From a virus, in the IMG/VR virus record IMGVR_UViG_3300022925_001882, positions 25,403-89,402 of that record: a stretch of DNA of 64,000 nt. One strand, written 5' to 3'. Of this stretch, positions 60,267 to 63,193 are shown piece after piece. The notes under the pieces were generated by a model. It was not told the DNA's origin and made no database searches. It saw only the letters and a list, made by a program, of their open reading frames with translations. The stretch's first letter is position 1. Each line of letters starts with the position of its first letter. Position numbers and translations under genes: made by a program.

Positions 60267-60272
60267 TATTTA
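60267..60272 (-). promoter_or_regulatory. Late promoter of the 59953-60255 gene
   Basis: AATAAATA then GGAGG and ATG, 11 nt spacing. Confidence 0.6.
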
Positions 60273-60953
60273 TTTTGCGACTGTTTTCTTACGTGTTGCT
60301 CTTTTCGCAGGTGTCTTCTTTGCTGGTTTCGGCATCATTGCTTTTGCTTCTTTCATCAACCTTTTAGACTCGGCAATTAGACCCTTGGCTTCTGCTTCCA
60401 TGCGTTCTGCTTGTGCCATAAAATCTCTTGCTAGTACATCATCGTTTATTGCCATGTTAGGATCAACAACATTAGTTCCCATAGTAGGCTCAGGTCTTAC
60501 TTGTTCTCCGATTAGACCTTCTTTTCTACGTCTAACATCTGCTGGGTCTTGTAGACCTGCTGATGCATCTGCTTCTGCAAGTTTGCGAGTTGCTTCTTCG
60601 CCTGCTTTCATTTCGCCTAAGATTTTGTTCAATTCATCTAAACGAATTGATTGATTAGGACCCGGTGTCATTACAACATCTTCGGTTCTAATCTTCTTAA
60701 GCATTCCTTCTGAGTGTAATACTTGAAGGATACGATCACCTGACTTAGTATATTGTCTGTTTAACGCATCAGCAAGTTCTTCACTATTCTGACCGATATC
60801 ACTTTCAATAGTTTCCATTAATGGATCGTGGATATTTTGATTCAACAATTGTGTATATGCTACTAAACACATATGTTCTTCGTTTGGTACTTCACGGAAA
60901 ATCACTGCAACCTTACGATCACCGTGTTTTCCTACGTGTCTTAAAAAACTCAT
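60270..60953 (-). CDS. Conserved-looking phage protein with basic C-terminus
   Basis: 227 residues. The N-terminus MSFLRHVGKHGDRKVAVIFR and EEHMCLVAYTQLLNQ is familiar from marine T4-like phages as an uncharacterised protein. A coiled coil (about 170-205) precedes a Lys/Ala/Pro tail (AKKTPAKRATRKKTVAK) like histone-type DNA-binding tails. AGGAG precedes the ATG. DNA or RNA polymerase contact is conceivable; no motif shows it. Confidence 0.6.
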   Translation of the reverse strand: MSFLRHVGKHGDRKVAVIFREVPNEEHMCLVAYTQLLNQNIHDPLMETIESDIGQNSEELADALNRQYTKSGDRILQVLHSEGMLKKIRTEDVVMTPGPNQSIRLDELNKILGEMKAGEEATRKLAEADASAGLQDPADVRRRKEGLIGEQVRPEPTMGTNVVDPNMAINDDVLARDFMAQAERMEAEAKGLIAESKRLMKEAKAMMPKPAKKTPAKRATRKKTVAK

Positions 60954-61033: not shown

Positions 61034-61192
61034 TCAATTTGCCCGTTTTATCAACTTGGCATGTTTCTTGTTAAACTTCTTTTGTTTTTTCTCTGGTAAA
61101 GGCTGTAGTAAACATTTACCGCATTTGGTTCCTATAAGATGGTATCTGTCAACCTCGCCTTCTCTAACAGCATGACAGATACATTTAAACAT
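61034..61192 (-). CDS. BFD-like [2Fe-2S]-binding small protein
   Basis: 52 residues from ATG 61192, directly after the stop of the upstream gene. C4-x-C6 (FKCICHAV) and C24-x2-C27 (GTKCGKC) give the CxC...CxxC ligand set of bacterioferritin-associated ferredoxin, with the family's 'G-x-x-CGKC' ending. Spacing between the two Cys pairs is 17 residues versus about 31 in E. coli Bfd, and a basic tail follows. Bfd reduces ferritin-stored iron for release. Here it might feed Fe-S or radical SAM enzymes; inference. Confidence 0.6.
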   Translation of the reverse strand: MFKCICHAVREGEVDRYHLIGTKCGKCLLQPLPEKKQKKFNKKHAKLIKRAN

Positions 61193-61450
61193 CTACGACC
61201 AAGTGAGTTCAAACTGAACTGCTTCTTTTGGATCTTCAAACGCAAATGTCTTTTGATAGTATGACATGAAATCATCATTATCGAGGTTTACGTTGCTGGC
61301 TATAGCAAATCGACCATGCATTCTTTCTAATACCCATTGCATGTTTTCTCTGGTAGCACGTGTTTTTACTATCGTAAAATGAGCAGGGATTTGATCAGTC
61401 AACATACGATTGTTGTACCAAGTATCTAAATTGATGTCCTCAAACTTCAT
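61193..61450 (-). CDS. Small hypothetical protein
   Basis: 85 residues, MKFEDINLDTWYNNRM start, ends with FELTWS. Compact, no motif. ATGA overlap with the gene upstream. One operon with 61447-61611 and BFD-like gene. Confidence 0.6.
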   Translation of the reverse strand: MKFEDINLDTWYNNRMLTDQIPAHFTIVKTRATRENMQWVLERMHGRFAIASNVNLDNDDFMSYYQKTFAFEDPKEAVQFELTWS

Positions 61451-61611: not shown

Positions 61612-61904
61612 TACTTTCTATCCTCACTTAAATTATAAACAATCTCTACTTGTTCTAATAACTTACTTAGAGCAGGATTGTTTTTAGAGACTTCTAGTAT
61701 ATCTCTATACATGTGCCATCGTTCATAAAATTTCTTTTCTTCTAACATTTCTGGGTTTTCGTAAACCTTTTTTCTTTGTGCCATTTCATGTACACCTAAC
61801 GGTCTTGCATACACTGTGTTGCCACCGTCTGGTGATTCGTAAATGAACTTATCCTCTGGGCCTGCATTAGCAGGCCTGTGAGGTTCTAAATGATCTTTGC
61901 TCAT
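61611..61904 (-). CDS. Small hypothetical protein after the VWA gene
   Basis: 97 residues, charged and helical (KVYENPEMLEEKKFYERWHM). Starts inside the end of the VWA gene (4-bp ATGA overlap). No known motif; partner to the VWA protein is possible. Confidence 0.6.
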   Translation of the reverse strand: MSKDHLEPHRPANAGPEDKFIYESPDGGNTVYARPLGVHEMAQRKKVYENPEMLEEKKFYERWHMYRDILEVSKNNPALSKLLEQVEIVYNLSEDRK

Positions 61905-63193
61905 GCGGCTTGTTTATGTTTATGCTCATCATAGATTGCCCAAGTACCGAAAGGGGGATTCGGCTCAGGATCACCATGAATAATCCATGTAGTGTCGCAA
62001 TAGTTTTCATCGCCCCAACTACCAAACGGGTAACCATCTGTGAATACAATTAGACGATTGGGTACACGACCTTCGTTTTTAAGATAGTTAAAGATACAAT
62101 CAAAGTCAGTACCACCGCCACCGTAGATTTCGTAGTCAGTGATTTCATCTAAGTTGTCACTGTCGAATGTTTGTGGATTGTAAACTTCAGTATCAAAACA
62201 ATGTACATGAATTTTGTAGTTAGTAAATGTCTCCATAATACCTTGAATCTCTGAAAGGAAAAAGGTTCCTTGTTCAGATCCAATAGACCCTGACATATCT
62301 AAAAACACATCAATGTCAATCATTTCGCCTGGAGTCATACCTGGCATGATTGCATCCTGATGCCAACCCCTACGAGAAGGTTTGATAAAAGAATAGTCAT
62401 TGTTCATTGTGCTGGTCAGATTAGTTTGAATAATGTCGTCCCAGGGCATTACAGGAGATGTTAAATCTTTAACTAAACGTTCAACACCTTTGGGTAATGA
62501 TCCTGCTTCAGCACCTTGAGCCGCATTGATGATTGCTTCCTTCATCTCCTGCTTGAGTGCATCCTTTTCTTCCTTAGACATTTTGACTGGACCGGGCTTG
62601 TCACCTTCTTCGCCATCACCATCACCAGCGCCTGCACCCTCGCCTTCTAAATGTTCATCAAGCAATTGCTCAAGCAACTGGTCAATGTCAATAACTTCTG
62701 CATTTTCATACAGAATGTCATAGACTTGCTCTGCTGACATACGGTCATATTTGTAGTCATACAAGCAAGGAACAGTAGTGATGAACTCACCAATGTTGTG
62801 ATTTTTCAAATCTGCGTTGACACAATAGTCATCAGCAATGTTCCATAGTTGAGGATCTCTAGTACCTCTACGATCCATGTGATCATAAACTACGTGGAGT
62901 ACCTCATGTGCTACAAGAAATTCTACTTCCTTCTTCTTTAGCATCATAATGAAACGTGCATTGTAGTAAAAATGCTTGCCATCAGTTGCGGCAGTTGGAC
63001 ACCATTCATCAGCATTGATGAGTGTCAAACGAGTAGCAAGATTACCAAAGAATGAATGTCTGAGTAAGAGTGCAATACGGGCAGTGATAAGACGATCACG
63101 GGCTTGTGCATCTACTTGAGGGTCTGTAGGACCTACTAGATGAGCCAGTTTGCTTTCTTTGTCGTTATTAGTTGTTGAAGAATTCTTAGTCAT
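61901..63193 (-). CDS. VWA-domain protein with metallopeptidase-like N-terminal half
   Basis: 430 residues. HEVLH at 96-100 is an HExxH zinc motif in a DUF2201-type domain. An acidic linker (EGEGAGAGDGDGEEGDK) follows at about 183-199. The C-terminal VWA domain has MIDAS DMSGS (299-303) and GGGGTDFD near 343. Such proteins work with MoxR-type ATPases, one of which lies directly upstream. Cleavage activity is unproven. Its sigma70 promoter shares the CCCAAAGG box with the AAA gene at 36.3 kb. Confidence 0.8.
   Translation of the reverse strand: MTKNSSTTNNDKESKLAHLVGPTDPQVDAQARDRLITARIALLLRHSFFGNLATRLTLINADEWCPTAATDGKHFYYNARFIMMLKKKEVEFLVAHEVLHVVYDHMDRRGTRDPQLWNIADDYCVNADLKNHNIGEFITTVPCLYDYKYDRMSAEQVYDILYENAEVIDIDQLLEQLLDEHLEGEGAGAGDGDGEEGDKPGPVKMSKEEKDALKQEMKEAIINAAQGAEAGSLPKGVERLVKDLTSPVMPWDDIIQTNLTSTMNNDYSFIKPSRRGWHQDAIMPGMTPGEMIDIDVFLDMSGSIGSEQGTFFLSEIQGIMETFTNYKIHVHCFDTEVYNPQTFDSDNLDEITDYEIYGGGGTDFDCIFNYLKNEGRVPNRLIVFTDGYPFGSWGDENYCDTTWIIHGDPEPNPPFGTWAIYDEHKHKQAA

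Follow-up and report, generated by a model that had tools for sequence, protein, structure and literature searches.

Drastically shortened relatives of bacterioferritin-associated ferredoxin form a family found only in viruses

In bacterioferritin-associated ferredoxin (Bfd), loops L1 and L3 carry the cysteines that hold the cluster and make up the interaction surface for bacterioferritin (Bfr) (PMC12363616), and residues Y2 and L5 lie within the Bfr interface (PMC13136788). Bfd (PF04324; 4e6k) starts with M-[Y/F/I]-x-C-[I/V/L]-C and has a G-[T/S]-x-C-G-x-C loop further along. Bfd-like sequences also occur in other settings. Alphaproteobacterial ORFs of ~820 to 900 residues contain BFD-like domains, and the jumbo phages Acinetobacter phage ME3 and Stenotrophomonas phage RAS14 carry Bfd-like proteins.

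Here we describe a family of drastically shortened Bfds that is restricted to viruses and was previously uncatalogued. These proteins, which we call mini-Bfds, share with Bfd the starting motif, the loop motif, the position of both near the N terminus, and mostly hydrophobic residues at positions 2 and 5, which contact Bfr in Bfd. However, only 17 or 21 residues separate their cysteine pairs (N17 and N21), compared to 30 to 33 in Bfd. The shortest also lack the C-terminal helix found in Bfd, and mini-Bfds are free-standing only in viruses or are joined to phage enzymes. The viral fusions resemble the alphaproteobacterial ORFs in placing a four-cysteine domain within a larger protein, but the bacterial domains are internal and full length (N31 to N32), whereas the viral module is N-terminal, half length, and joined to DNA enzymes. 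The jumbo-phage proteins are phage-borne, as mini-Bfds are, but their genes are full length (with a spacing of 30 in RAS14) and were out of reach of mini-Bfd tblastn queries. RAS14 (L220:1501-1671) and another jumbo phage, XacN1 (L221:1501-1656), have Bfd-like ORFs that are unannotated and span ~57 and ~52 codons, respectively, with a NadM/Nudix-type gene a few hundred bases downstream in both.

We began with one gene in a 64-kb stretch of an 89.4-kb virus record. This stretch is called the window below, and Table 1 lists its features. The rest of the record was searched with the mini-Bfd protein, with profiles, and for tRNA and tmRNA genes. In the window protein, the CxC motif is at residues 4 to 6 and CGKC is at residues 24 to 27, with 17 residues between them.

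Table 1. Coordinates of the window mini-Bfd gene, its neighbors, and regions with a mini-Bfd core in a tmRNA gene
Feature	Coordinates	Strand	Details
Mini-Bfd CDS	61034..61192	-	52 aa; stop codon included; protein MFKCICHAVREGEVDRYHLIGTKCGKCLLQPLPEKKQKKFNKKHAKLIKRAN
Conserved 27-codon core	61112..61192	-	MFKCICHAVREGEVDRYHLIGTKCGKC; N17-type four-Cys module, common to 44 distinct cores
Lysine-rich C-terminal tail	61037..61111	-	25 aa; 9 K/R, 1 D/E
Upstream gene	61193..61450	-	85 aa; no family; 0 nt to mini-Bfd ATG
Downstream gene	60270..60953	-	227 aa; PHROG 15894, unknown function
Region with core in tmRNA intervening segment, L044	4905-5299		
Region with core in tmRNA intervening segment, L025	4901-5317		
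Region with core in tmRNA intervening segment, L060	4905-5306		
Region with core in tmRNA intervening segment, L179	4049-4483	-	

The initial annotation had considered this short ORF to be a probable gene, and our data agree. Relatives of 52 aa are encoded by eight IMG/VR loci at 75 to 100% identity and by a ninth at 69%, all in the same frame and of the same length. Two of them (L001 and L002) are identical to the window gene in DNA and therefore carry no information on selection. When the core was compared to those of the seven non-identical relatives, substitutions were mostly synonymous (pS of 0.12 to 0.53 and pN of 0.016 to 0.078). The core of the window clade is under purifying selection at the protein level. 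In L007 and L009, the two more distant relatives, constraint on the tail is weaker. A broken frame in close relatives had been set beforehand as evidence against the gene, and the frame is intact in them. The in-frame DNA pattern lengths described below also support a real gene.

The gene had been thought to abut both of its neighbors perfectly. This is correct on the upstream side, but an 80-nt gap separates its stop codon from the start of the downstream gene. A protein related to the upstream gene product precedes mini-Bfd in seven neighborhoods, and close relatives in the window clade retain one syntenic position. The neighborhood in the window includes ThyX, an ATPase-family match, and a metallopeptidase/VWA-like protein (DUF2201). 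The DUF2201 protein (61901-63193, minus strand) has PHROG 1314 as its best match, which is labeled HNH endonuclease. Its homologues in phage records are variously labeled HNH/homing endonuclease, hydrolase, or DNA repair ATPase, and the group looks mislabeled.

We collected relatives from IMG/VR. A search built on an alignment of the first relatives gave 72 loci, with N17 spacing in 62 and N21 in 10, and all four cysteines were kept in 72/72, each locus having been fetched through only one of two short peptide stretches. We also used a DNA pattern, MY-x-C-x-C-[HN]-gap-G-x-x-C-G-x-C, which accepted any gap of 30 to 60 nt and left gap length and position 5 free. There were at least 117 matches to it in newly fetched loci. 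Among the matches listed, the pattern was 93 nt (76 matches), 81 nt (40), or 87 nt (1) long; these are the only lengths found out of 31 possible, and all are in frame. This ruled out a chance origin of the motif. Longer gaps with [HN] at position 7 had no match in IMG/VR. With any residue allowed at position 7 there were five matches, of which three were Bfds of full length and two were N25 intermediates.

In total, the search of metaviromes for short-spaced CxC/CGxC proteins, which had been suggested at the outset, yielded 104 distinct relatives in IMG/VR, with spacings of essentially N17 and N21 and one N19. The four-cysteine order CxC ... G-x-x-C-G-x-C is present in the window protein and in 44 N17 and 49 N21 distinct cores. 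Cores are 27 to 31 residues long across the family, and free-standing proteins are as short as 31 aa. Position 2 is Y, F, I, or L and position 5 is I, V, or L, with H twice; position 2 is partly fixed by patterns that demanded MY or MI at the start and is therefore biased. The lysine-rich tail is restricted to the clade of the window, and the tails of other members are unrelated to it.

The family appears to be confined to viruses. In 257 Gb of cellular genomes, the DNA pattern had two matches, one of them in frame. The out-of-frame match is inside a longer Bfd-like ORF. The in-frame match (L192) is identical to a viral member and lies on a 6.3-kb MAG contig, which is possibly a misbinned piece of phage. 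No mini-Bfd was found in 50,697 phage records by tblastn, in which the only hits were Bfd-like segments of longer alignment span. This collection does contain Bfd-like genes of greater length. Neither Pfam nor PHROGs has a family that covers the window protein or the other members searched, probably because the proteins are so short. Open literature searches returned no report of a phage-borne shortened Bfd. The suggestion that this might be a distinct minimal protein is supported by a virus-only family with N17 and N21 spacing.

Several profile comparisons connect the family to Bfd. When N17 profiles were run against all PDB sequences, Pseudomonas aeruginosa Bfd chains came first (4e6k and 6e6q/r/s). 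The alignment consists of two pieces that flank the missing middle and fall on the two cysteine loops. The E value was 0.007 to 0.015 with the first set of relatives, for which the search had no Bfd-derived constraint, and 0.0005 to 0.0015 in a second search. The signal is weakest for N17 alone (0.0005 to 0.015 overall). An N21 profile matched Bfd in the PDB at 7.5e-7 and independently recovered the window gene at E = 1.5e-7, and one N21 protein as the query found Bfd at 0.006. Profile-profile comparison links N17 to N21, N21 to cellular Fer2_BFD, and N17 to cellular Fer2_BFD, and N25 intermediates bridge mini-Bfd and full-length Bfd. The Pfam model itself (Fer2_BFD, PF04324) scored 12 bits against the window protein (cutoff of 26) and at most 14.9 bits against other members, with no match above the cutoff anywhere in the record, which fits a family that has not yet been catalogued. 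From these sequence matches, the family is very probably derived from Bfd, as the label BFD-like had implied. The remark that the 17-residue spacing is about half that of Bfd was also accurate, because all 22 Fer2_BFD reference segments (21 cellular and 1 from a jumbo phage) have 30 to 33 residues there.

We did not build any claim on structure. AlphaFold2 modeled the window protein poorly (pLDDT of 58). An N21 model was confident (83) and showed three short helices. Foldseek placed Bfd first among the PDB matches to this model, but the hit was not significant (E value of 1.4, TM of 0.35).

What might a Bfd of this size do? The middle between the cysteine pairs would have been trimmed from about 31 residues to 17 or 21. 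The part retained would be the two loops that hold the [2Fe-2S] cluster and dock on Bfr in Bfd, with the scaffold behind them lost. The protein is most likely made during infection. Its conserved cysteines (C4, C6, C24, and C27) are likely to bind a metal or cluster, and with less confidence we predict a [2Fe-2S] cluster. The protein would then serve as a small donor of single electrons, with host Bfr as its likeliest target and docking through mini-Bfd residues 1, 2, and 5. Electrons would pass to the Bfr heme, and stored Fe3+ would leave as Fe2+ for iron enzymes of the phage or host. A ferritin gene was not found in 16 phage records, so the Bfr partner would have to be that of the host. As a whole, a Bfd-derived viral [2Fe-2S] electron donor with host Bfr as its likeliest target is a tentative proposal. 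That its main role is iron release from host Bfr is more doubtful. With the spacing halved and the scaffold lost, the protein may be unable to bind a cluster or to dock on Bfr. Furthermore, a role with Bfr does not explain the enzyme fusions and tmRNA placements described below.

Some cores are joined in frame to the UvsW helicase (L031, L036, and others), some to a PD-(D/E)XK exonuclease (PHROG 298/PDDEXK_1; L085, L140, and others), and some to other phage proteins. These fusions fit a different role, in which the module supplies single electrons or a cluster to phage enzymes in general and has no role with Bfr. For example, it might repair the NrdB radical site in class I ribonucleotide reductase or exert redox control over the joined helicase or nuclease. 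NrdB is encoded in 11 of 30 phage records, which adds to this possibility. However, most of the records, which are often fragmentary, yielded no NrdB, and neither NrdB nor NrdA was found in the 89-kb record of the window. The link to ribonucleotide reductase is only suggestive. The joined enzymes also do not appear to need the module. Among the matches listed, the alignments of 15 UvsW homologues from phage records begin at fusion residues 21 to 35. Those of 14 of the 15 exonuclease homologues listed begin at residues 26 to 43, and one begins at residue 5. Thus, the module is missing from the UvsW homologues listed and from almost every exonuclease homologue listed. In each fusion shown, a Met follows the core at a distance of a few to ~15 residues, so either a fusion protein or separate translation is possible, and the partners may begin at their own Met. 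Selection on the core is visible in one UvsW-joined pair (pS of 0.68, pN of 0.16) and not in three close exonuclease-joined pairs (pS of 0.05 to 0.15, pN of 0.055 to 0.108). We regard this general enzyme role as possible but unlikely. The exonuclease family covers only about the first 250 residues of the 650-aa ORF in L085 (766-2715, minus strand), and the remainder has no family match and may be a second joined protein.

Alternatively, the four cysteines could hold zinc in a treble-clef or knuckle-like arrangement, and the protein would bind nucleic acid or another protein. The tail of the window protein, with K/R at 9 of its 25 residues, would then contact DNA or RNA, and the association with DNA enzymes and tmRNA genes would suit such a role. 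But in other clades the tails are acidic or neutral. Weak zinc-ribbon matches exist, all of them below their cutoffs. In the window protein, zf-ChsH2 scored 13.5 bits (cutoff of 23.2) over residues 15 to 27 only, and zinc_ribbon_6 scored 10.6 bits (cutoff of 27) over residues 12 to 27 only. The best score of a zinc-ribbon family in the other members was 15 bits (cutoff of 27). Such matches are mostly on the CGKC side, whereas Bfd matches both cysteine pairs in the right order, and the first pair is CxC, as in Bfd. These comparisons make a zinc protein rather improbable.

In some lineages, a permuted (two-piece) tmRNA gene (RF04321) encloses or follows the core. Among the 104 distinct proteins, eight have a core enclosed in this way (seven are N17 and one, L179, is N21), and all eight have an [IV]SDGG tail. 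In L044, the core begins 3 nt past the CCA and continues into the tmRNA 5' half, which read in frame is the [IV]SDGG tail. In six more N21 loci, the tmRNA starts 110 to 146 nt past the core start on the same strand. Therefore, 14 of the 104 distinct cores are inside or within 150 nt of a permuted tmRNA. Three more have a tmRNA at 0.5 to 1.2 kb, and two long-distance cases are both from L107. Rfam RF04321 supports a permuted tmRNA in nine of the submitted loci. L107 (1-8487, minus strand) is an 8.5-kb contig with two permuted tmRNA genes, each with its own mini-Bfd core upstream. We had considered whether N21 tails such as DGERVTYLTN are tmRNA 3' halves in frame, but we dropped this idea because a tmRNA can be absent from loci with tails of this kind (L082 and several others). 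Read-through into tmRNA holds only for the SDGG group, with the tail as the tmRNA 5' half.

No mini-Bfd was near any of 51 other viral permuted tmRNAs that we fetched with a tmRNA-only pattern. Therefore, we rejected a general partnership, and the association is confined to some lineages. The window copy is not among them, because no tmRNA gene was detected in the window or the rest of its record. A core nested in a tmRNA gene is an unusual arrangement. In the passages available from a tmRNA database paper, the presence of a tRNA gene within one intervening segment is highlighted as unique, and no protein gene is mentioned in such segments (PMC11915505).

These placements raise the possibility that mini-Bfd is chiefly a mobile coding cassette. 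It would settle wherever it is tolerated, such as at gene starts, in tmRNA intervening segments, or next to tRNA genes, and its benefit would be minor or generic. The core is sharply conserved while tails and neighbors are unrelated, and cores lie within or just upstream of permuted tmRNA genes or shortly ahead of the Met of a partner. Even so, protein-level selection is visible in the tmRNA-embedded cores (for N17 copies, pN of 0.016 to 0.187 was below pS of 0.06 to 0.87 in 15/15 pairs) as well as in the window clade, which also holds its one syntenic position. Each of 10 records searched with the N21-type profile contained one match only, and the window gene was the sole match to its own protein in the whole record. 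A mainly mobile element is very unlikely. A Bfd mimic that would sit in the docking site of host Bfr, or of another Bfd partner, and obstruct it while delivering no electrons fits the retained docking loops and lost scaffold. Such a mimic is highly improbable, because a pure blocker would not need the four cluster ligands that all 72 loci keep.

We return to the [2Fe-2S] electron donor that would act on host Bfr. The fixed half-length spacing, the restriction to viruses, and the odd genomic placements are the surprising features of the family. In the boldest form of the proposal, a self-sufficient, virus-only Fe-S domain of 27 to 31 residues would spread among phages as a coding cassette, alone, fused to a helicase or nuclease, or in tmRNA genes, and would open the host Bfr iron store during infection. 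This complete version is unlikely to hold in full. If true, phages would have a direct handle on host iron stores, and phage iron supply could be tested with one small gene. If a cluster is bound, mini-Bfd would be a minimal model for the Bfd-Bfr interface, and the shortest members (31 to 36 aa) would be very small natural iron-sulfur proteins. One mini-Bfd of 35 aa (L017:5001-5187) stops 4 nt ahead of a tRNA-Cys gene.
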